Source: Archivesica marissinica
Taxonomy: Eukaryota; Mollusca; Bivalvia; Venerida; Vesicomyidae
Reading direction: 5' to 3'
DNA length: 64,000 nucleotides
Assembly: GCA_014843695.1 (NCBI GenBank)
Contig: CM026390.1
Location: forward strand, 2,625,213-2,689,212
The translations under genes and the position numbers were made by a program. Shown piece by piece: positions 34,038-59,383 of this stretch. Position 1 is the stretch's first letter; every line of letters begins with the position of its first letter. The notes below the pieces were generated by a model. It saw nothing but the letters and a program-made list of their open reading frames with translations, was not told the DNA's origin and did not search any database.

Positions 34038-36644
34038 CTACTTGAGAATACTGTGACCTATCAAATTTGGCATACAAGCCACATAATGATGACCATCTAT
34101 GGACATAAAGAATACTTTCTCTGCTATATCTTCAACTGGAAATATTGCTTTCCCAGTAGCTTCAGTCACTTGTATAATATGCTGAGAATTAGTATCACAA
34201 ATAAAGCTTTCTTGGTGAACTTTTACTTTTTTTGCAAAGGCTAACACACTGTTTGTATCAGTTTTAACTAGAAAGTACATTACTTTTCTCAGCTGACCAT
34301 TTTTACATCGTACCACATAACAGATGCGCTTTTTCATTCTACTGTACTCTTCAGAATATAGTTTCTGCCCATTAACCAGAACTCGAAGTGATTTCTTGAA
34401 TAGCTGTATATCTTGGCAACCAGTTTCATTCAAAATGTACAAAATATCATCTTCATCCAAGTCTGTGCAGGATTTTAATGCCCCAGCCGTTGACATATTT
34501 TCACCACCATTAGTTACAGACCAGGTTTTACGTTGTTTCATTTTAACAAGGTAAGAATGTGCATCACCATGTGGCAGACTGTCGAGATCGATACAATTCA
34601 ACTTCAACTGTATTTCATGTACATGCAGACACTGCTTAGTAACATCTCCAGTGCCATGAACGGACTGAAGTAAAGCTGCATTCCAGTCCTCAAATGGGAA
34701 GCAACTCCAGCTCCATAATGGTCCCCACATTCTCACATAAAACACCATATGAGCACCAACATTGTGAATATTGAGTCCGCAACTTCCCTCTCCATATAGA
34801 GCAGCAAACTGTTTATAAAATAAATCTAAAAGACTTTCGGCTTTAAGAAGATTATCTTCAGTAATGTTGTCGCCAAGCAACAGATAAATACCTTTGCTTA
34901 AAAGTGCTAGATGCTGTTCAGGCAAGGTAGAGCATAGAACAGCAGCCACGTCTGATATTCAGTGGCCTTGAAGTGACTGTAATTTTTCTCCAAATCTCTG
35001 GGTATGCGCTCAATATAATCTGGTGGACATATACTGTGCATACGTTTAGATATTTTTTTCAGATGCTTGCCAACAAAATATGGTTTATCACTGTTTGTTG
35101 GCGAAGATGTTTTATATATCAAGGTTTTTGTCACACCAAGTAAAACACAGTGCATATAGTCTGGCATTACACCAATAACAACATCAAACCATGGCATAGC
35201 AGCCAAACCAGTCATTCCACAAATTCCTTTTTGTCGTACTGATGCGGTTGCACTAGGCCCTTTAATATATTTAACATCATCTGAATCGCGCATGTCCGGA
35301 CGTTCATCTGGTGATCTGTAGGGATAGGATCTTGCATACCCTTTTCCTTGTTTTACACTTTGACCCGACTCTTCACAAGTTGAACAACCAAATGCACCAT
35401 TATGCATTGTCATGTTAAGAACGTAGGCTTTTGCCTGCAAATCCATTGTACCAACAAAGACACCAAGTCGTACATTCAAAGTTTCCAGTAAACCGTAAGG
35501 CTTTATTTTGACACCATCTTCATACAAGTTGCACATTTGCTCTCCAAAGGCACACATATACTGAGCAAATGGTGGTTTATCTTTTCCTTGCCATATTGCT
35601 GGTAAAATCATGTTTTCTCTTGCAAACCGACAAGATGGAGGCAATTCATTGATAGCAAGAAACACAGGTCACAACTTTACATTGGAGGAGTTGTATAGAG
35701 GAATACCATCAGTGTTAAAGAGAGAACTAATATTGTTTGAATTATTTAAAAACTGTCCAGGTTGACATAATGTACGATAAAATTGACCATCACTGATATC
35801 AGTTATTTCTGTCTGACTGATTCTACGTTTAGTGTGCTGGATGCTGTTCCATGTACCTTTTCTTTCCAATATAAATTGGAGCTGTTTTTCGACATCCGCT
35901 AACACAAAACTGTTTATTGGTTGACGACTTGCTCTTTGTTGTGCAGGTAGTTGGCCCTTATAGCGTAGTCCAGTACATCCATCTGTTTCACATCTAAAAT
36001 CATCAGGATCCTCAGGAAATCGTTTACTACACATTGAACAGTAATCAACTGTTTTACAGTTTCTATTGCCTGCTAGTGACATGACTTTATTGAATGTGAT
36101 ATCCTTGAACTGACTTGAATCGGGACATAAAACTCTTAATAGGTTTAGCAAGTCTTTTATGGCAATACCTGATGAATTGTGTCGTACAAAGTAAGAAACT
36201 AAGCATAATGCATTCAATTCAGTTTCTAAGTACATAGATTTGTCCACATCATCACATAGCATTTCGTCATCAAACGAATCATAGTCAGACGGTTCTGAAT
36301 CAAGTTCTGATTCAGATGACAAAATGTCACTACAATCTGTTGACGAGTCACTGGTGAAATCACTGTCACTATTTGAAAATTCATCACAATGCTGATCACT
36401 TGTTATGACTTCATTTTGTACATGTGAATATGTGGCAGTATTATCCGAGTCCTGCTCTGAAGAACACTGTGTGTTACAGGCTTGAGCAGGGCTCTGTATT
36501 GCTGATGATTCATTATTATCTGAGTCCTGCTCTGAAGAACAATGACTGTTGTCAAACAGGCTCTTTCTTGTTGAGGAATGTCGCATTGCAGTGCGCTTTG
36601 GCATAGGAACTGAGGGGTCATCTTCGTACTGCTTTTCAACGGAC
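34038..36644 (-). pseudogene. tnp2-like (Transposase_21) transposase, broken
   Basis: Reads right to left as about 865 residues in one continuous homology block. The N-terminus is acidic with repeated SSEQDSD words. A cysteine cluster (YCSMCSKR, then CETDGCTG) follows. The core has PVFLAINELPP, FGCSTCEES, GVMPDYMHCVLLGVTKTL, and near the C-terminus GPLWSWSCFPFEDWN and HGTGDV, which I recognise as hallmarks of the tnp2 transposases of CACTA/EnSpm elements. Two breaks: an in-frame TGA at 35669-35671, with the same frame continuing on both sides, and a frameshift at about 34915-34945. A 3' splice site (tttcag) just before 36644 implies at least one upstream exon, so the first ATG at 36604 is probably not the true start. 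The enzyme would cut and rejoin the element ends. Confidence 0.85.
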
Positions 36645-44658: not shown

Positions 44659-45195
44659 CTCAATCAGATATGTATTGTGTCTTCAAAGCAACGCCATAGA
44701 AATACATTATCAAATTAACAAAAATGCACAACTCAATCAGATATACATTTTGTGCCTTCATAGCAACGGTATAGAAATACATTAGCTAAATAACAAAATG
44801 CACAACTCAATCAGATATACATTGTGCCTTCATAGCAACGCTATAGACATACATTAGCTAAATAACAAAATGCAGAAATCAATAAGATATACAGTGTGCC
44901 TTCATAGCAACGTTATAGAAATACAATAGCAAAATAACAAAATACAGAACTTAATCAGATACACATTGTGCCTTCATAGCAACGTTATAGAAATACATTA
45001 TTAAATTAACAAAATGCAGAATTCAATCAGATATACAGTGTGCCTTCATAGCAACGATATAGAAATACATTAGCAAATTAACAAAATGCAGAACTCATTC
45101 AGATATACATTGTGCCTTCATAGCAACGCTATAGAAATACATTAGTAAAATAACAAAATGCTGAATTTAATCAGATATACACTGTTCCTTCATAG
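44659..45195. repeat. 72-bp satellite, segment 2
   Basis: About 7 copies continuing in phase from the break at 33024. It ends within a unit after cttcatag, where the FEN-like-nuclease element starts. Confidence 0.95.
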
Positions 45196-45632
45196 TAGAC
45201 TGGTGGGATTTCAGAAAAAAGGCCCTGCATAAGGTTCTAGGGGCATTTTGGGGTAAAAGTTGGGAACCAGACTTCTTAACATATTCCAGGCATGCCGAAT
45301 CCGATAAACCCGGTTTCCAAGCAAAATTTTGAGTTTTTGACCATCTAATTTGCATAAACAAAATGGCCACCAAATGGCAAATGTTGAAGCATTCTTCTAC
45401 GATATGTCTGTAACCAGGCAAGCTATAATGACAAATCGAGTGTCTATACCTATATTTTGAAGGGCAGGGAATATGGTTCAGACATTTCCGAAGTCATTGG
45501 TGGTGAAAAATACTCATGAATATGCAAATTAGTGGCCGCCATTACAGAAAAGTCCGTTTTCACGAATATCTCTGTAACCGGGCAAGCTATAATGACAAAT
45601 CAAGTGTCTATACCTATGTTTTGAAGGGCAGA
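45196..45632. repeat. left terminal inverted repeat
   Basis: Inverted match to 49139-49563 at high identity, with most differences in the first 70 bp. A block starting ctgtaacc repeats directly at 45409, 45572 and (shortened, just beyond the TIR) 45702. Confidence 0.85.
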
Positions 45633-46101
45633 GAATATGATTATGACATTTCTAGAGTCATAAACAATACTCATGAATATGCAAATTAGTGACCAACATA
45701 TCTGTAACCAGGCAAGCAATAAGAAAAATTCAAGTGTCTATACCTATGTTTTGAGTACCGGGTAATCCAAGGGTTTCAGAAAGGGGATTCCCCAAAAGTA
45801 TTTGCAAGGGGATTCACTGAATCATGTTTCCCTTCTGATGGACCACTATGCACTAGACTATAATGGAGAAAGCCTGAAGGGTCTAATTTTGATATCTTGC
45901 TTGGCACCAGTGGTTTTGAACCATGACTCTGATTATCGATTGTATTCTATAAAATTGACCTTTTTAAATTAGGGTAAGTAGGCTACTGTCAGAAATATCC
46001 CCCAGATGAGTCAAATCAAACACAACTGGCAACATGGCAACGGGGACAAAAATCAGATGCTGAACTTCAGACGTTAGAGCCGTCAACTAGACATATGCTG
46101 A

Positions 46102-49100
46102 TTGTGCCAGATATCATGCAGAACCTGTACAGAACCTGTACAGAACCTGTATCCTGCGAACATAAATCCTGCAACAAGTGAGCCGGTATTCGCCACACCT
46201 GTTGACAAGAAATGGTTTACGAAACCTGAAGCAGACCCTGATTGTGTAAAACAAGCGGAGGTAAATGATATGGCGTTCTTTCTGCGATGTCAAGATTCTG
46301 ACACAAAACCTTCTTGGACAGTATTCAATCAGTCGATCTCATCAGAGGAACCAGAGGAGACAGCAGTAGGATATTTGCCTATCATTCTTGCTCTGGCCCA
46401 TGAATTAGATACGCTGAATACAGTTGTGAAAAGGTGCATGGCAATATCGTCCCATTTTGGCCAGGAGTACACTGTCCTTACAGTCGACCAAGCTCTATTC
46501 TGCAAACTCATGGAACTGAAGTGGTATGTTGAAGAATACCGGGATAAATTAATCCCTCGTCTTGGTGGACTTCATACTGCGATGAACTTCCTAAAGACAA
46601 TCGGAGATCACATGGCCGGTTCTGGTCTAGCTGAAGTGTGGTTGGAGTGTGGACTGCTCGGAGAGGGTGCTGTGCAGCTTGTCTTGTCAGGAAAGGCATA
46701 CAGCAGGGCTATGAGAGCTCACAAACTTACCGTGCAGGCCCTGTGGCGGCTTTTGTTGCCAACATTTCTCTTGTTTGCTGCAGAATCGAACAAGGAATGC
46801 TATGATGAAGTTTCTGCAATGGCAGCTGATGACAACCCCGAGAGAATTCCTGAGCTGATAGCGTGTCTCAGGCAGGAAATGTTTCACATAGTTCTGAAAG
46901 ATTTCGTTGCTAGTAGATCGGATGATGTGAACTTCGTCTTTTGGTGGAACTACATGGACATGGTATCGATACTGTTGCATTTCACCCGAGCACAGCGTGA
47001 TGGAGTATGGGACCTTCATCTATACTCCTTCAGTCTGATGTTGCCCTACATCATGCGATATGACCACCTGAACTATGCAAGATGGGGTCCGCTGTACTTG
47101 GCCGAGATGCACCAACTTCCAGAACCTGTGCTATCGGAGTTTCAAAAGGGAAACTTTGTTATCAAGCGTTCGGCACATAAGTTCAACCAAGTAGACCCAG
47201 ACCAAGCCATGGAGTGGATAAATGGTACAGGCAAGAAAGGAGGTGGAATCGTTGGCATCACAAAAACAACATCAGCTCTTACTAGATGGACCCTTTCGTA
47301 TAATCATGTACGATCACCATCCTGGCAGTGGATACGTTCACAATGAAGCCACCAAATCACGGCAAAAGCGAGACAACGATGATGAGATGGCATTAGTCAC
47401 GGCCTTCCAGGGATTCAAGGTGCTTGCATCAGTTTCACCAGGGTCCTTGCACAACCTCGTCATGAAAGACCAGCAACGGAGGAAATCCAGGACTCGTTAC
47501 TTTGTGCCAAAGACCTCGAACAGGAACAAGTGAATACATTTGTTGAGGAGAGAATGATTGTACCTAAGCAAGGTGACATGCCGGATATCCCGATTCATGC
47601 GCCACAAGAGTCGTGCCAAAACGTTTGAATCCCTGTATGAAGAGGTCAAGGACAGTAAAGACAAAGACAAGAAAACTATCATAAAAGCAGATAGAAACGT
47701 CCTTCAACGCCTCGTCATTGCTTATGAGGCAGGTCGTCCTGTTGACTTGCAAGCTGTCATGAAGCACGAGCTTCTGCCAGTTCCTATATCACTTGCCGAA
47801 ATGAATGGTTCACTCCGGACTGGAAACAAGTCCGTGCTGGCAGATACGTTAACAAAAGACATAGTATGTCCTGAAGCTATAGAAGTTCACAACTTGTCAT
47901 CTTGCCTTATCATTGATGGACAAGCACTGGTGGTTGCTCTGGGAAAGCCTGAAAAAGCAGTGACCTTCGGGGACTTGGCCGACACATACGTAAGAGCAGT
48001 ACTGAAGGCAGGTTCTAACTATCAACGAATAGACGTTGTGTTCGACAGGTACAGAGAAGAGACAATCAAGGGTGCTACCAGGACACGACGCACTAAAGCA
48101 GCTCGCCCAATCAGACGGCTTGTTGAAAATCGTGATGTGCCGCTTCCAAAAAACTGGACAAACTTTCTGTCGCTTCCTGATAATAAAGTTGATCTTGCAC
48201 ATTTCTTGTCTTGGGAATTGTGTCTTCAGGCACCAGATGATAAGGAGATAGTAGCTGCAGGGGGATTCAGGGAGGAACTTGAAGTTAGGTCTTCAAAGAC
48301 AACAACCGATTTGACTCAGCTGAAAGCCACACACGAAGAAGCTGACACTAGGTTGGAGTTACATGTTGTGCAGAGTCAGTTTAACACAGATGTTGTGTCA
48401 TCAAGGGACACTGATTTTCTCATGCTTTTGGTTTCCAATTTCCCACGTGTTCAGTGTGAACGTCTCTGGATGCTGTCTGGTACTGCCAAGAAACGGCGAT
48501 ATATACCCATTGATGCAGTTTTCAGTAACCTGCCAAGAGATTCAGCTACAAATCTTTTGCCATTTCATGCATTAACCGGGTGTGACACCACACCATACAT
48601 CGCAAATCACACGAAAAGGACCGCATGGGAAGTCTTTAAAGAACACCATCAGTTGCTCAAGGACTTAGCAATCGCTGAACTCACAGAGGAGACCATTAGA
48701 TCTTCAGAAACATTTCTTTGCAGAGTATACAATGTGCAAAAAACAGACTCTATTGATACGGCACAGCATATACTATTCTCTAAGACAGGGAAACCTGAAG
48801 CGATGCCCCCAACGAATGATGCTTTCCGCTATCATGTGATGCGAGCACACTATCAAACAATGGTTTGGAGAAATGCTCACTGTGCTGTACCTGAGCTTCC
48901 AGCCCCCGTGGACATGGGATGGGAACGTACTGATACAGGACTAAAGCCCAAACTAATGTCATTGAGTCCCATCCCTGAAAGTTGTATGGAAGTGATTTCA
49001 TGTTCATGCAAGAAACAATGCAAGACACGCCGGTGCAAATGCCGAAAATACAACTTACGATGCACAGCAATGTGTGCATGTGAGCAAGAGACTGATGACC

Positions 49101-49126
49101 AAACTCGTTGTATGAATACGGCCTAG
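46102..49126 (+). pseudogene. FEN1/XPG-like nuclease with C-terminal CXC cysteine domain, frameshifted
   Basis: One protein read in pieces: 46102 to about 47300, about 47290-47475, about 47475-47600, then 47600-49126, separated by three one-base frameshifts. The first 400 residues are helical and unassigned. In the last piece (numbered from 47558) acidic residues fall in FEN1-like order and spacing: D120 (LIIDGQ), D163 (VVFDRYR), E261 and D263 (HEEADTR), D284 and D286 (RDTD), D343 (LTGCDTT). These would match the seven metal-binding acids of FEN1. C-terminal residues 482-508 have CxC-x3-C-x4-CxC-x6-C-x3-CxC, like half of a tesmin/CXC DNA-binding domain. It is the only gene in the element, so it is the candidate mobility enzyme. 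The nuclease assignment is my inference. The true N-terminus is uncertain, as upstream exons may exist. Confidence 0.65.
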
Positions 49127-49138
49127 CCGAACAAACAT

Positions 49139-49563
49139 CTGCCCTTCAAAACAGGTATAGACACTTGGTTTGTCAATATTGCATTTCTGGTTACGGAGAT
49201 ATTGGTGAAAACGGACTTTTCTGTAATGGCGGCCACTAATTTGCATATTCATGAGTATTGTTCACAACCAATGACCTCAGAAATGTCTTAATCATATTCT
49301 CTGCCCTTCAAAACATAGGTATAGATACTTGATTTGTCATTATAGCTTGCCCGGTTACAGAGATATCGCAGAGGAATGGTCCAACATTTGCCATTTGGCG
49401 GCCATTTTGTTTATGCAAATTAGGTGGTCAAAAACTCAAAATTTCACTTGGGAACCGGGTTTATCGAATTCGGCATGCCTGAATTATGTTAAAAAGTCTG
49501 GTTCCCAACTTTTACCTAAAAATGCCGCTAACATTCACAATTTTCTCAAATCCCACTATACTA
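49139..49563. repeat. right terminal inverted repeat
   Basis: Inverse of 45196-45632. It contains two ctgtaacc-type direct-repeat blocks against three on the left, so the TIRs differ by a repeat-unit change. Confidence 0.85.
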
Positions 49564-50379
49564 TAGCAACGATATAGACATACATCAGTAAAATAACAAA
49601 ATGCAGAACTCAATCAGATATACATTGTGCCTTCATAGCAACGGTATAGAAACTCAATAGCAAAATAACAAAATGCACAACTCAATAAGATATACATTGT
49701 GCCTTCTTAGTAACGCTATAGAAATACATTAGTAAATTACCAAAATGCAGAACTCAATCAGATATGCATTGTGCCTTCATAGCAACGCTATAGAAATATA
49801 TTATCAAATTAACAAAATGCACAACTCAATCAGATATACATTGTGCCTTCAGAACAATGTTGTAGAAATACATTAGCTAAATAACAAAATGCAGAACTCA
49901 ATCAGATATACATTGTGCCTTCATAGCAACGGCATAGAAATTCAATAGCAAAATAACAAAATGCCGAACTCAATCAGATTTACAATGTGCCTTCATAGCA
50001 ACGGCATAGAAATTCAATAGCAAAATAACAAAATGCACAACTCAATCAGATATACATTGTGCCTTCATAGCAACGCTATAGAAATTCAATAGCAAAATAA
50101 CAAAATGCACAACTCAATCAGATATACATTGTGCCTTCATAGTAACGCTATAGAAATACATTAGCTAAATAACAAAATGCCGAACTCAATCAGATATACA
50201 TTGTGCCTTCATAGTAACGCTATAGAAATACATTAGCTAAATAACAAAATGCCGAACTCAATCAGATATACATTGTGCCTTCATAGTAACGCTATAGAAA
50301 TACATTAGTAAATTACCAAAATGTAGAACGCAATCAGATATACATTGTGCCTTCATAGCAACGCTATAGAAATACATTA
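49564..50379. repeat. 72-bp satellite, segment 3
   Basis: About 11 copies continuing in phase from 45195 and ending at atacatta, where the LINE inserted. Confidence 0.95.
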
Positions 50380-50758: not shown

Positions 50759-53638
50759 CACAGACATTGGTCTGCATAAAAATGGCATGAATATCGGTCA
50801 TTTAAATGTTCAAGGTCTTAATAATTTAGACAAATTTGAAGAGGTAAAGCTACTTATGACCTCTGATAAAAATAAAATTGATATATGGGGCTGAGTGAAA
50901 CAAAATTTAAAGATGATGTAAATACAAATGCTTATTTAATAAAAGGATTTTTACCTCCATTTCGTAGAGACCAAAATGACAGAAATGGTGGTGGCGGAAT
51001 TTTAGTTTATGTTAAAGATGGGTTAAATGTGAAACGCCGTTATGATTTAGAAACGCATGATATTGAGGTTGTTGTTCTTGAAATATATTGTAAATATTGT
51101 AAACCATTTTTTGTTTGCAATGTGTATAGGATTTGAAACAATTGAATTGTTTATCGAAAATATGTTCTATGAAGATAAAGAAATAATTTTATTAGGTGAT
51201 TTCAATAGAAACCTCACTGATTGTTATACAAATGATGAATGGGCAAATTTTTATATCCCACTAGGTCTTACACAGTTAGTAACGGAACCTACTAGGGTAA
51301 CTAGATCATCTGCATCTTTGATTGATCACATATATACTAACATGGAAGAAAACATTGCCAATATGTATGTACCAAAGCTTTCTATCAGTGATCATTACCC
51401 AGTATTCTGTAATCGTAAAGTCAACTTTTTCAAATAATAAAAGTATGCATGAAACAATATCATATAGATCATTTAAAAACTTCAATGAGGAGTCCTTTTG
51501 CGAAGATTTACGTATTGCAGATTGGACCTTTGTTTATATATATGATGATCCAAATGAAATATTAAATATGTGGTGTAAACTATTTTTAGAAATTGTACAT
51601 AAGCATATTCCAATAAAAACTCAGCGAGTGAAACGGAAATATCAACCAGACTGGATAACAACAGAAATCTTAGATACTATGAAAAAACGCGATAAAATGA
51701 AGCAAGATAAATCAGAGCAAGGTGTTAATCAATATAAACTACTTAGAAACAAAGTGTCGGCAATGATTAATACAGCAAGGAAAGAGTCATGTGAAAGAAA
51801 AATAGAGTCTGGTAAAGATAACCCACGTACTGTCTGGAAGATTTTTAAAGAGTTTGGTTCAGGAAAATCAACACAATCTGTAAACAATATTAACTCAATA
51901 TACCATCAAGGATCTGATTACTCTCAAAATGTTGAAATGGCAAATATATTTAATGAAGTCAATGTTGCATCTAATATCAAAGATCCAGTCCCTGATCACT
52001 TAAACTTTGACTATATAAAAGATTTTATTAATGAACATGTACCTGTTGATGTAGTGTTTGAAATACCAGAAGTTACACAGAGTAATATCAGAAAACAATT
52101 ACTCGAACTTAATGTTTCTAAAGCTACTGGAATCGATAATATTGGACCAAAGCTGTTAAAACTTTCAGCTGATATCATTGTACAACATTTAACTGTTATA
52201 ATAAATATAAATAAGAGTTTGAAAACATCAACTTTCCCTGAAGCTTGGAAATTTGCAAAAGTCAAACCATTATTCAAAAGTGGAAAAACCAATGACGTCA
52301 ATAACTATAGACCTATTTCAATTTTACCATCTTTGTCGAAACTTTTTGAAAGACACGTGCATAAATCGCTGCAGACTTTTTTTGGATCACTTCAATTTAC
52401 TTCACAAAACACAAAGTGGTTTCAGAACTGGCCACTCAACTGAATCAGCTTTACTTTATATGATAGATAAATGGATTCGAGCAATGAATGAGGGAAAATT
52501 GATTGGAATTGTAATGGTCGATTTTCGAAAAGTTTTTGATCTTGTCGATCCTACTGTTTTGTTAAAGAAATTATCATTATACAAATGTAGCAACAATACT
52601 TTGAAGCTTTTTCAATCATATCTTTGTGATAGAAAGCAAACTGTTTCTATAAATGACGTTTTATCTGAAAATAGAACTGTTAATTGTGGAGTCCCGCAGG
52701 GCTCAATATTAGGACCTCTTTTATTCTTACTTTTTATCAATGACTTACCACTAATGTTTTCAAATAAAATCACCGGTAGCAATTTATATGCAGATGATAC
52801 TACATTGTATGATATCCATAATAAGAAAGAAGTGTTAGAAACAAGATTACAACAAGCTTTGGAAGACTTGAAATACTGGTGTTTCCAAAATGGAATGAAG
52901 ATTAATACAGACAAAACGAAAGTTCTATTTATGATGACAGCCCAGCGAAAATGTGCTTTCCCTAACCCTACACTCTCTCTTAAATATCAAAATATATTAT
53001 TGAAAACCAGCAAATCAGAGAAGTTGCTTGGAGTACACATTCAGGATTCATTAAAATGGGACTCACATATCAAATATATTGTGAAAAAGATTTCAACTAA
53101 CATTTGGCTATTAGGTAAAATACGGTATATTGTGAATCTGAACTACAGAATACTTTATTACAAGGCATATATCCAACCACATTTTGATTATTGTTGTATC
53201 ATATGGGAAAACACCACACAACAAAATATTAACACACTATTAAGATTGCAGAGACGAGCTTGTAAATTCATTCTGGGCCAAGATTATATTTCTTTGCGTG
53301 AATCAATGTCTGAAATTAATATAATGACTTTTGACCAACGGATTATTTTTCAAAAAGCAGTAACAATGTACAAAATTATGAACAATCTTGTACCGAATTA
53401 TTTTAATGAACATTTTCAATTAAGACATTGCAATTCAGTTACTTCAGATATGACATTGAGAAATGTTTCAAATATGGATCTCTATATTCCAAGACCTAGA
53501 TGTGAAATGTATAAGAAATCATTAGAATACTCTGGTCCAAAGATATGGAATGGTCTACCATTTGAAATTAAGACATCCAGATCTTTAAATATATTCAAGA
53601 CAAAATGTAAAGTATGGATACAACGTTTTAATTGGTAG
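50759..53638 (+). pseudogene. LINE ORF2: APE endonuclease and reverse transcriptase, frameshifted
   Basis: The APE-type endonuclease shows IGHLNVQGL, LSETKF, LLGDFNRNLTD, SLIDHIYTN and SDHYPVF in order at about 50785-51420. A linker follows, then the RT with NYRPISILPSLSKLFER, VPQGSILGPLLFLLFINDLP, and the catalytic YADD at 52787-52798. A C-terminal region with RLQRRACKFI ends at TAG 53636-53638. Breaks lie at about 50886 (a short G run), about 51125 (with loss of some residues), about 51427 and about 52390. The protein would nick target DNA and prime reverse transcription there. This copy cannot work as read. Confidence 0.88.
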
Positions 53639-54877: not shown

Positions 54878-55861
54878 CTAATCGGACGAAACTGAATGAG
54901 AGGTGATAACAGACTGGGCAGCCACTATGGGACCCAAGGCAAACAAAACACGTGCATGTGGCAGTGTGTTCCGTAAATAAAACCGTATAAACGAGCTCTC
55001 TGAACTCCAATAACCTGCCCTTAAAACCTTCTCTAAGGGGACATTATTGAGCCATGCCCATGACGTAGACAGAGCCCTAACTTCATGGGCATTGACATGG
55101 TCAGGACATGATTCCTGCTCCCCGGAGAGACTGTAGGCGAACTTAATCGTCTCTACAATCCAACGGGAAATAGTAGACGCCGACACCTCCTTTGTCCAGT
55201 TATGACGAAAGGAGATGAATAGTCTATGGCGACCCTTCCGTATGTGAGACACCCTCTTAAGATATGCTTTGAGGGCTCTGACAGGACAAAGCTGAACGGC
55301 ACTGTCGTCAGTATCACGGGGAAGGGCTGGTATAGTAATACTGGTGTGAGCCACAGACAGAAGTTGATTCTTAGCAAGAAACCCCGGATAAGTATGCAGC
55401 TCAACAGCCGACTCGTCGTGTGTGAAATTAACACATGCTTCGTCGGCTGATAAAGCGTGAATCTCACTCCGCCTGCGACCAGACGCTAAGGCAATAAGAA
55501 ATACTGTCTTAAAAGTCAGAAACTTTAACGAACAAGAAGTTAAAGTTTCAAAGGGAGGTTTGGACAAGACACCCAGAACCAATGGAAGATTCCATTTCGG
55601 AACTGGAGAAGAAACCTTAGGTTTCTCCAGTTCCAAACTCCTGATAACATTAGATATTACAGGCTGGTTACTGTAGTTAATGTCCGAGAAATGCCTAAGC
55701 GTAGTAGCAATAGCCGACCTATAGCCTTTAATTGCTACTGGCGTAAGATTCCTCACCTCAAATAAATATATGAGAAATTCAACAAGTAAGTTTACTGAAG
55801 GACTGAAGGGATCCACTTGCTGTCCGACACACCAATCCAGCCACACTTTCCACCTACCAGT
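54878..55861 (-). CDS. tyrosine recombinase of DIRS/Ngaro-type element, N-terminus missing
   Basis: An uninterrupted frame of about 328 codons. Numbering from the GTG at 55846, it has an N-terminal helical SAM-like region (about 1-75) and a catalytic domain with R126 (ALASGRRRSEIH), H254xxR257 (AHEVRALS), W280 (AGYW) and nucleophile Y290 (FIRFYLR): the complete tyrosine-recombinase set, with Trp in place of the second His as often seen. The frame has no ATG at all and begins just after TGA at 55862-55864, so it is either 5'-truncated or joined by splicing at the nearby tag-g. No reverse transcriptase is found beside it. The enzyme would integrate a circular DNA intermediate. The family is recognised from the motif set; a Crypton is not excluded. 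Confidence 0.75.
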   Translation of the reverse strand, partial: TGRWKVWLDWCVGQQVDPFSPSVNLLVEFLIYLFEVRNLTPVAIKGYRSAIATTLRHFSDINYSNQPVISNVIRSLELEKPKVSSPVPKWNLPLVLGVLSKPPFETLTSCSLKFLTFKTVFLIALASGRRRSEIHALSADEACVNFTHDESAVELHTYPGFLAKNQLLSVAHTSITIPALPRDTDDSAVQLCPVRALKAYLKRVSHIRKGRHRLFISFRHNWTKEVSASTISRWIVETIKFAYSLSGEQESCPDHVNAHEVRALSTSWAWLNNVPLEKVLRAGYWSSESSFIRFYLRNTLPHARVLFALGPIVAAQSVITSHSVSSD

Positions 55862-56802
55862 TCAATAACATGATTTACCTCCCGTTAAAAGTATCGACAG
55901 AGTTCTTGTTCTTCGGTTTTTTCACTTCCGGTGAGCAAATTCTAACAAAATGGCGTCTATAACAAACAAAGGAATGGGAGACGTGTCAATTTTTGACCCA
56001 GAAAACATGAAAGTGATCGAATTAAGGGATTATTTAAGAAAGCATGGATTGCCTGTATCGGGATCTAAGCGTGAACTAGTAGAACGGGTGAAAGGATCTC
56101 TTGAAATCGGCAGAATTCCACTTCAGGAACTACGTACTTGTGACGAAAATTTTGCGAAACACAGGAACTTGGACAAATTGCGAACGCCGTTCGGTGAAAG
56201 GTTGCCATCCGCGGATGCATTGAAATCGGGATGGTCTAGTGATATTCAGTTGATTCCAAGTATAACTAAAGAGGACCTATACAATTATCTTGTGTTGAAT
56301 GATTCTAGGACTTTTGACAACAAACCAGTAAATGCCAGGAAACAACTGAAAGCTAAAGTTTTTTACACAGACGGGCACATTCACAGTGTACAATACCATG
56401 ATATAGATACAAATATATCGCATTGCTATGTCCGGGCAGAATGCATAAAATCGGTTCCTGCTGTAAATGACGGGAAAAAGGATTACGTTGTGTGGGTTTG
56501 CCTGTCGAAGGTTACTGGACGAGTTCATGCAGCTGATTGTACATGTGATGCAGGGTGCGTATTCTTGTTAAAATAGTCCCTAAAGAGTATAATATATTCG
56601 GTACAGGCTTCCAGCTAAAAGTGCGACCTTGCAAGCCTGATTGATAATGATTGTTCACCTGAGGCTGAACGCTGCAGGAGATGGATGGTTTCAACCTTGT
56701 CCGGGGTTCATTCTTATATGGTTGGATAGAGAGCCAGTTAGTTAAATAATGATTACCGATTGCCTATAAGTCTGGCCTGCAAAGATATGATTTAAGAAGG
56801 TG

Positions 56803-58196: not shown

Positions 58197-59383
58197 AGAG
58201 GGCGAGTCGTGCAACCATGTTGCGGCACTTCTGTATGCACTGGTTGACATATCTGACAAGAAGAAGGAAGGTCTAGATGCATCTACATCAAAAGCCTGTT
58301 TGTGGAATAAGCCAAGAGCTCGGAAGCTTAGTCCGAAAAAAGTGACAGAGATTGTTTTCAAGAAACAAAAATTCAGTGATGATATGCTTGTAGGTGACAG
58401 TGTATGTGACAAACCAACAAGACAATTGAATACCGGGAAAGTCATATTACCAACCCCAATTAACTTTCAACAGTTTACTGACAGCCTTTCAAAATGTAAT
58501 CCGTATGCTGCATTCCACTTGGCACATACTGAAACTTTGAACAATTTCAAGAAGCCAGCCCATCAAACACTTGAACAGTTGGGCATGCCCAGTCCAGATG
58601 TCATGTTTAGAGATGGTGTTGATTTGTCTGCTAACGGACCCAAACATGCTTTCAAAAGATATTTAGAGAAATTAACTCTAAGTGATGAAATGTGTAAAAA
58701 TATTGAAGTGAAAACACGAAAGCAGGCAATGTCAAAATTGTGGAAAATCGCTCGCTGTGATAGACTTACGTCGTCAACATTTGGACTTGTCTGCAAGAAA
58801 AAAACAGATACTGTTCCCGATTCTATTTTGAAAACTGTGTTTGAGTATAATAGCTTCAGTTCAGCCAGTACCAACTGGGGGAAAATCATGAACCAGCTGC
58901 CCGCAGATTTTATTTAAAAGACTCGGTAAAGATACACTCCAACATAACAGTGAGTGAAACGGGATTTGTTGTAAATACCAAACATCCCCACCTTGGTGCT
59001 AGCCCTGATGGGCTTGTTAACTGCCCTCATTGTGTGTGTAACAAGGGAATTTTAGAAATAAAATGTCCATACAAATATAGAACTGTAACACCAGTAGAGG
59101 CATCCAAACAGAAAGACTTCTTCTGTTATTTACAAAATGGAAAAGTGACACTGAAAAAAATCATTGTTATTACTATCAAGTACAAGGTCAAATGGGTATA
59201 CTGGAATGCAGCTGGTGTGACTTTTATGTGTGGACTTTAGAAGGACGATCAACTGAAAGAATTCATTTTGATAAAAGTTTCTGGGAAAATATGCTAATTA
59301 AATTGGATGGATTTTACATACAATCAATGGTTCCTGAAATTTTCACACAACGTGTGAAGCGTGGCAAACAATTAATGCCTTGA

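Follow-up and report, generated by a model that had tools for sequence, protein, structure and literature searches.

A stretch of 64,000 nucleotides from the bivalve Archivesica marissinica (GCA_014843695.1, contig CM026390.1, positions 2,625,213 to 2,689,212; hereafter the window) holds, within an array of 72-bp satellite units, a mobile element of 4,368 bp (positions 45196–49563) that has imperfect terminal inverted repeats of about 430 bp each and the trinucleotide TAG on either flank. The core arms of the repeats (45238–45620 and 49148–49530) are 383 nt long and 90% identical. When the element and one TAG were cut out in silico, a 72-nt unit was restored in register that has 64 of its 72 positions in common with the satellite consensus, inside the span of 17 neighbouring units (57–70 of 72). 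As the joined flanks restore a satellite unit and TAG stands on both sides, the element is an insertion with a 3-bp target duplication. An earlier reading of this DNA from its letters (the original prediction) had described such a 4.4-kb unit, with inverted repeats of about 430 bp and a TAG duplication inside a satellite, and the boundaries are thereby upheld. The same prediction held that a FEN1/XPG-like nuclease was the only gene; we find instead that the element is very probably a non-autonomous derivative, produced by internal deletion, of a DNA transposon of the Academ type (AcademX). The anatomy of the element, its deletion, the 3-bp duplication, the predicted folds, the conservation of residues and the sharing of the deletion among dispersed copies were all worked out by computation.

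The gene in the window copy is broken, its first approximately 505 residues having been deleted and its frame interrupted (Table 1). Upstream of the nuclease lies an open frame of 414 amino acids that matches residues 539–909 of a full-length protein at 90% and is part of its predicted transposase domain, with the second catalytic Asp codon at 46486 and the Glu codon at 47212; the nuclease is thus not the element's only coding remnant. The nuclease frame itself, of 522 amino acids, matches residues 1022–1528 of the same protein at 97%, while residues 910–1021 are in neither main frame and the interruption falls between 47346 and 47558. Aligned to a complete copy on contig C17 of the same genome, the window copy matches in blocks at 90–97.5%, and the missing nucleotides take with them the start codon and the first catalytic Asp of the transposase.

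Table 1. Features of the element and its flanks (positions in the window).
Feature	Position	Strand	Basis
Left target-site duplication, TAG	45193..45195	.	Sequence; flanks joined restore satellite unit
Left terminal inverted repeat, start TAGACTGGTGGGATTT	45196..45620	+	Inverted repeat core; outer end TAGACTGG
Internal deletion junction with short microhomology; about 1.59 kb gone (full-length nt ~692–2277)	46019..46023	.	Alignment to complete contig C17 copy
Remnant of predicted DDE transposase domain, residues 539–909 of full-length protein	46102..47346	+	Protein match, weak Pfam DUF6589
Open frame between transposase remnant and nuclease frame, in the stretch where the gene's reading frame breaks	47222..47533	+	List of open reading frames
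FEN1/EXO1/XPG-type nuclease domain (predicted) and cysteine-rich tail	47558..49126	+	Fold model, conserved residues
Right terminal inverted repeat, end CTATACTA	49148..49563	-	Inverted repeat core; ends compared across copies
Right target-site duplication, TAG	49564..49566	.	Sequence; flanks joined restore satellite unit

The complete C17 copy, read from two overlapping pieces of one contig (L039 and L020), is 5,779 bp long and contains a single open frame, 1,540 codons in length, that gives 1,528 amino acids from the first Met; two further full-length copies, of 6,111 and 6,165 bp, have interrupted frames. Public relatives of about 1,530 amino acids occur as single proteins. By prediction, the upstream part of the full-length protein is a DDE transposase: the structures that aligned best to its model were those of the P element, Hermes, ISCth4 and RAG1, and the D-D-E triad is present in each of the 39 homologues in the alignment that exceed 1,450 amino acids. 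Two CxxC...HxxC pairs at the N-terminus, resembling zinc fingers, are invariant in 39 of 39. The predicted transposase domain overlaps Pfam DUF6589 (PF20231) in five relatives (P0036, P0040, P0134, P0129 and P0126), with P0036 scoring 37.6 bits against a Pfam gathering cut-off of 27 and the window frame (16.9 bits), P0134, P0129 and P0126 all falling below it. DUF6589 is annotated as of unknown function, and the word was not found in the literature collection searched. A profile comparison of the transposase with PDB chains gave no sequence match.

For the downstream part, the original prediction had placed seven acidic residues in the order and approximate spacing of the FEN1 metal ligands, and both the residues and the predicted fold agree with it. 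The model of the 522-residue frame has a FEN1/EXO1-type nuclease fold followed by the cysteine-rich tail; of the 45 aligned sequences, all keep D120, D163, E261, D263 and D284, and each of D286 and D343 is present in 44 (codons at 47915, 48044, 48338, 48344, 48407, 48413 and 48584). Their spacings are 43/98/2/21/2/57, compared with 52/72/2/19/2/52 from the FEN1 numbers given in that prediction. The tail (Cys codons from 49001 to 49109), which had been called tesmin/CXC-like, does hold nine near-invariant cysteines, each in 42–44 of the 45 aligned rows, but the resemblance to that family stands only in part: the tesmin/TSO1 CXC model of Pfam was below threshold in the six of eight scanned relatives that it matched (E 0.059–6.9), and the tail was modelled with a predicted local distance difference test score (pLDDT) of about 50. 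Pfam and NCBIfam scans of the nuclease frame gave no match. Since phmmer and profile searches against PDB sequences likewise returned nothing meaningful, the case for distant homology comes from folds and residues.

Searches of the 1.54-Gb host genome showed that the window copy belongs to a dispersed family. With the left 505 bp as query, 40 copies (the best 40 of 157 candidates) were scored, at 94–100% identity. Perfect 3-bp duplications (TAG, TGT, TAA, TAT, AAC, TAA, TTC and TTG) flank eight of the ten copies in which both flanks could be read, a count that leaves out L003 and L006, whose left flank reads N, and copies fetched at one end only. The left end begins with TAGACTGG in 9 of 10 readable copies, and the right end carries CTATACTA in 15 of 28 and CTATTCTA in 7 more. 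Among the eight copies whose 5' part was compared first (L001–L008, L001 being the window copy), the deletion junction 691|2278 in full-length coordinates is shared by the window copy and six of the seven others; the remaining copy runs into N. The deleted segment, used as a query, was found over its whole length at 98–100% identity in eight places (best 40 of 92 candidates scored).

The distance from the 5' end to the nuclease, in 24 copies paired by hand and mostly from sizes rather than from junctions read, is 2,323–2,388 bp in nine (window copy 2,362), 1,998–2,023 bp in seven, 3,775–4,021 bp in five (3,773 in the complete C17 copy) and some other value in three. The group of seven, for example L012/L042, L016, L019 and L021, forms a second class with a shorter span, and its sole member read across (L042/L012) also lacks the transposase start. 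Two deletion lineages thus appear to have multiplied. Because dispersed copies share one deletion and most have their own 3-bp duplication, the short form has apparently been multiplied by mobilisation in trans.

Taken together, these results bear directly on the original prediction's view of the element as possibly a new superfamily driven by a flap-type nuclease. That the nuclease alone performs both excision and insertion might seem natural from the window copy, where no other intact frame is as long, and from the conservation of the nuclease's seven metal ligands in 44–45 of 45 sequences; we now give this explanation virtually no credence. Full-length copies encode, ahead of the nuclease and in one frame with it, a predicted DDE core whose triad is conserved in 39 of 39 long homologues, and the window copy is a deleted form of such an element. 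On this evidence, both the nuclease-driven and the new-superfamily readings run into two findings that the prediction had itself named as decisive against them, namely full-length copies with a predicted DDE transposase and an architecture that matches a superfamily already named, Academ/AcademX. Its fallback, an accessory gene whose transposase had been lost, came close: the transposase has indeed lost its start and first Asp, but it belongs to the same open frame as the nuclease and is not a separate gene. A different possibility is that the short copies still function as nuclease donors and are retained for that supply. No stop interrupts the 522-residue nuclease region of the window copy, L010–L013 or L022. 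However, seven short copies (the class of L010 being assumed), compared over the nuclease frame with every codon that holds a stop or gap skipped, give a ratio of nonsynonymous to synonymous differences per site (pN/pS) of about 0.96. Between the full-length L018 and L020 the ratio is 0.34, a figure based on only 7 changes that are synonymous and 8 that are not; with individual short copies set against L020, it was 0.49–1.07. Stops also interrupt the nuclease in the window-type copies L014, L015, L026 and L028. The donor role is therefore very unlikely, and the short copies, on these small numbers, look like passengers.

We assign the element to the Academ type because the full-length form agrees with it in size, in the length of the duplication and in having both a nuclease and a DDE transposase. 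The nuclease of AcademX is of the XPG type, and AcademX has a Cys8 zinc finger, by which either the tail cysteines or the N-terminal CxxC...HxxC pairs could be meant. In the literature, AcademX is described with a nuclease and a 3–4-bp target duplication and AcademH with a helicase and 9–10-bp duplications, Academ is counted among the superfamilies with a DDD/E transposase (PMC9587614), and 100 curated Academ consensuses with a mean of 5,565 bp are reported from bivalves (PMC10294476). The element has the 3-bp duplication (in the eight copies above), the nuclease in one frame with the transposase, and the D-D-E triad in its full-length relatives. An assignment to AcademH was rejected on the element's 3-bp rather than 9–10-bp duplications and on the five long relatives in which no helicase matched in Pfam at E up to 10, and one to P or hAT on the 3-bp duplication, theirs being 8 bp. 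In the literature library searched, no paper was found that mentions both Academ and XPG (or 'XPG nuclease'), which says nothing beyond that library; P0134 patterns found no match among IMG/VR viral contigs.

Several points weigh against this assignment. Membership is argued from architecture and not from alignment to a reference Academ sequence, two of the ten copies (L002/L015 and L004/L035) have no clean 3-bp duplication, and the frame is wholly open in one of the three full-length copies read. Foldseek with the transposase model alone gave no match at E<=0.001 (best 0.19, to RAG1), a structural Z of middling size can, by the tool's own warning, arise for helical proteins, and the mobilisation in trans is a step that we infer. 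An unnamed fusion of DDE transposase and nuclease, distinct from Academ and of the same architecture, would fit the comparison with Academ by description only, as well as the Pfam results (only DUF6589 and a sub-threshold CXC) and the absence of an NCBIfam match. Such a fusion would nevertheless coincide, in the lengths of its element and its duplication and in its nuclease and DDE transposase, with what the available descriptions give for AcademX and bivalve Academ, and we consider such a distinct lineage unlikely.

As for the mechanism of the Academ-type element, the DDE core most likely carries out cut-and-paste transposition, acting on the long inverted repeats with a stagger of 3 bp. Complete copies of 5.8–6.2 kb would each encode one protein of about 1,530 amino acids, comprising in order the two N-terminal CxxC...HxxC pairs, the DDE core with a long helical insertion, the FEN1/XPG-type nuclease and the cysteine-rich tail. 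This protein may use its zinc-binding parts, which probably contact DNA, to bind the long inverted ends; the DDE core would cut the ends and insert them, presumably in that order, and the nuclease might cut or trim an intermediate that carries a branch or flap. Unable to make the whole enzyme, the window copy would be moved in trans. Because the nuclease is strictly conserved, we suggest that it has a needed role, such as the removal of flaps or the cutting of branched intermediates. That all ten acidic residues (three of DDE, seven of FEN) are retained in 39 of 39 long proteins also prompts a bolder proposal, possible but rather doubtful, in which the nuclease is an obligatory second catalytic centre, the DDE core performing one set of cuts and strand transfer and the flap nuclease cutting or trimming the other strand and helping to set the 3-bp stagger; the protein would then be a two-nuclease transposase.

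The rest of the window is rich in repeats. Roughly its first half (1–33025) consists of satellites with units of 37, 40, 60, 34, 63, 54/108, 26, 65, 73, 67 and 72 bp, with a stretch of N around 8.6–9.6 kb. A frame at 34907–35665 (- strand), with a sub-threshold Transposase_21 (tnp2) match (E 2.7e-5), probably marks a further DNA transposon, which lies between two runs of the 72-bp satellite. Two overlapping frames at 51322–53638 (+), of which the second encodes a reverse transcriptase (RVT_1, E 1.2e-25), look like a broken retrotransposon of the type lacking long terminal repeats (non-LTR). Beyond them lie a possible tyrosine recombinase frame at 54878–55846 (-; Phage_integrase, E 0.002, sub-threshold), a SAP-domain frame at 55950–56576 (+; E 3.3e-12) and a frame at 58300–58917 (+) that matches a viral alkaline exonuclease at a borderline level (E 2.9e-4), the latter two possibly parts of one further mobile gene.

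The present findings remove a candidate new superfamily and place it within a known one. The gain in annotation is modest: judging from the predicted fold, a portion of Pfam DUF6589 represents the DDE transposase domain of such elements. One genome with both complete copies and amplified deletion derivatives of a recent family can be used to ask what the nuclease does, and if it proves necessary, transposition would proceed by an uncommon two-enzyme mechanism.

Among known systems, the FEN1, EXO1 and XPG nucleases share with the element's nuclease the predicted fold and the seven metal-ligand residues, at 10–16% identity in the corresponding rows of the fold comparison; unlike them, it is fused to a transposase and to a cysteine tail. 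The P element, hAT (Hermes), RAG1 and ISCth4 have an RNase H-like core in which a helical insertion precedes the last catalytic Glu, as is predicted here, but to our knowledge their transposases carry no FEN1-type nuclease, and P and hAT make 8-bp duplications as against 3 bp. AcademH, by the literature in the same superfamily as AcademX, differs in its 9–10-bp duplications. Closest is the AcademX lineage, from which the window copy departs in lacking the start and the first catalytic Asp, and with which the full-length element shares a DDE transposase and nuclease in one element, a 3-bp duplication (3–4 bp reported) and a similar size.
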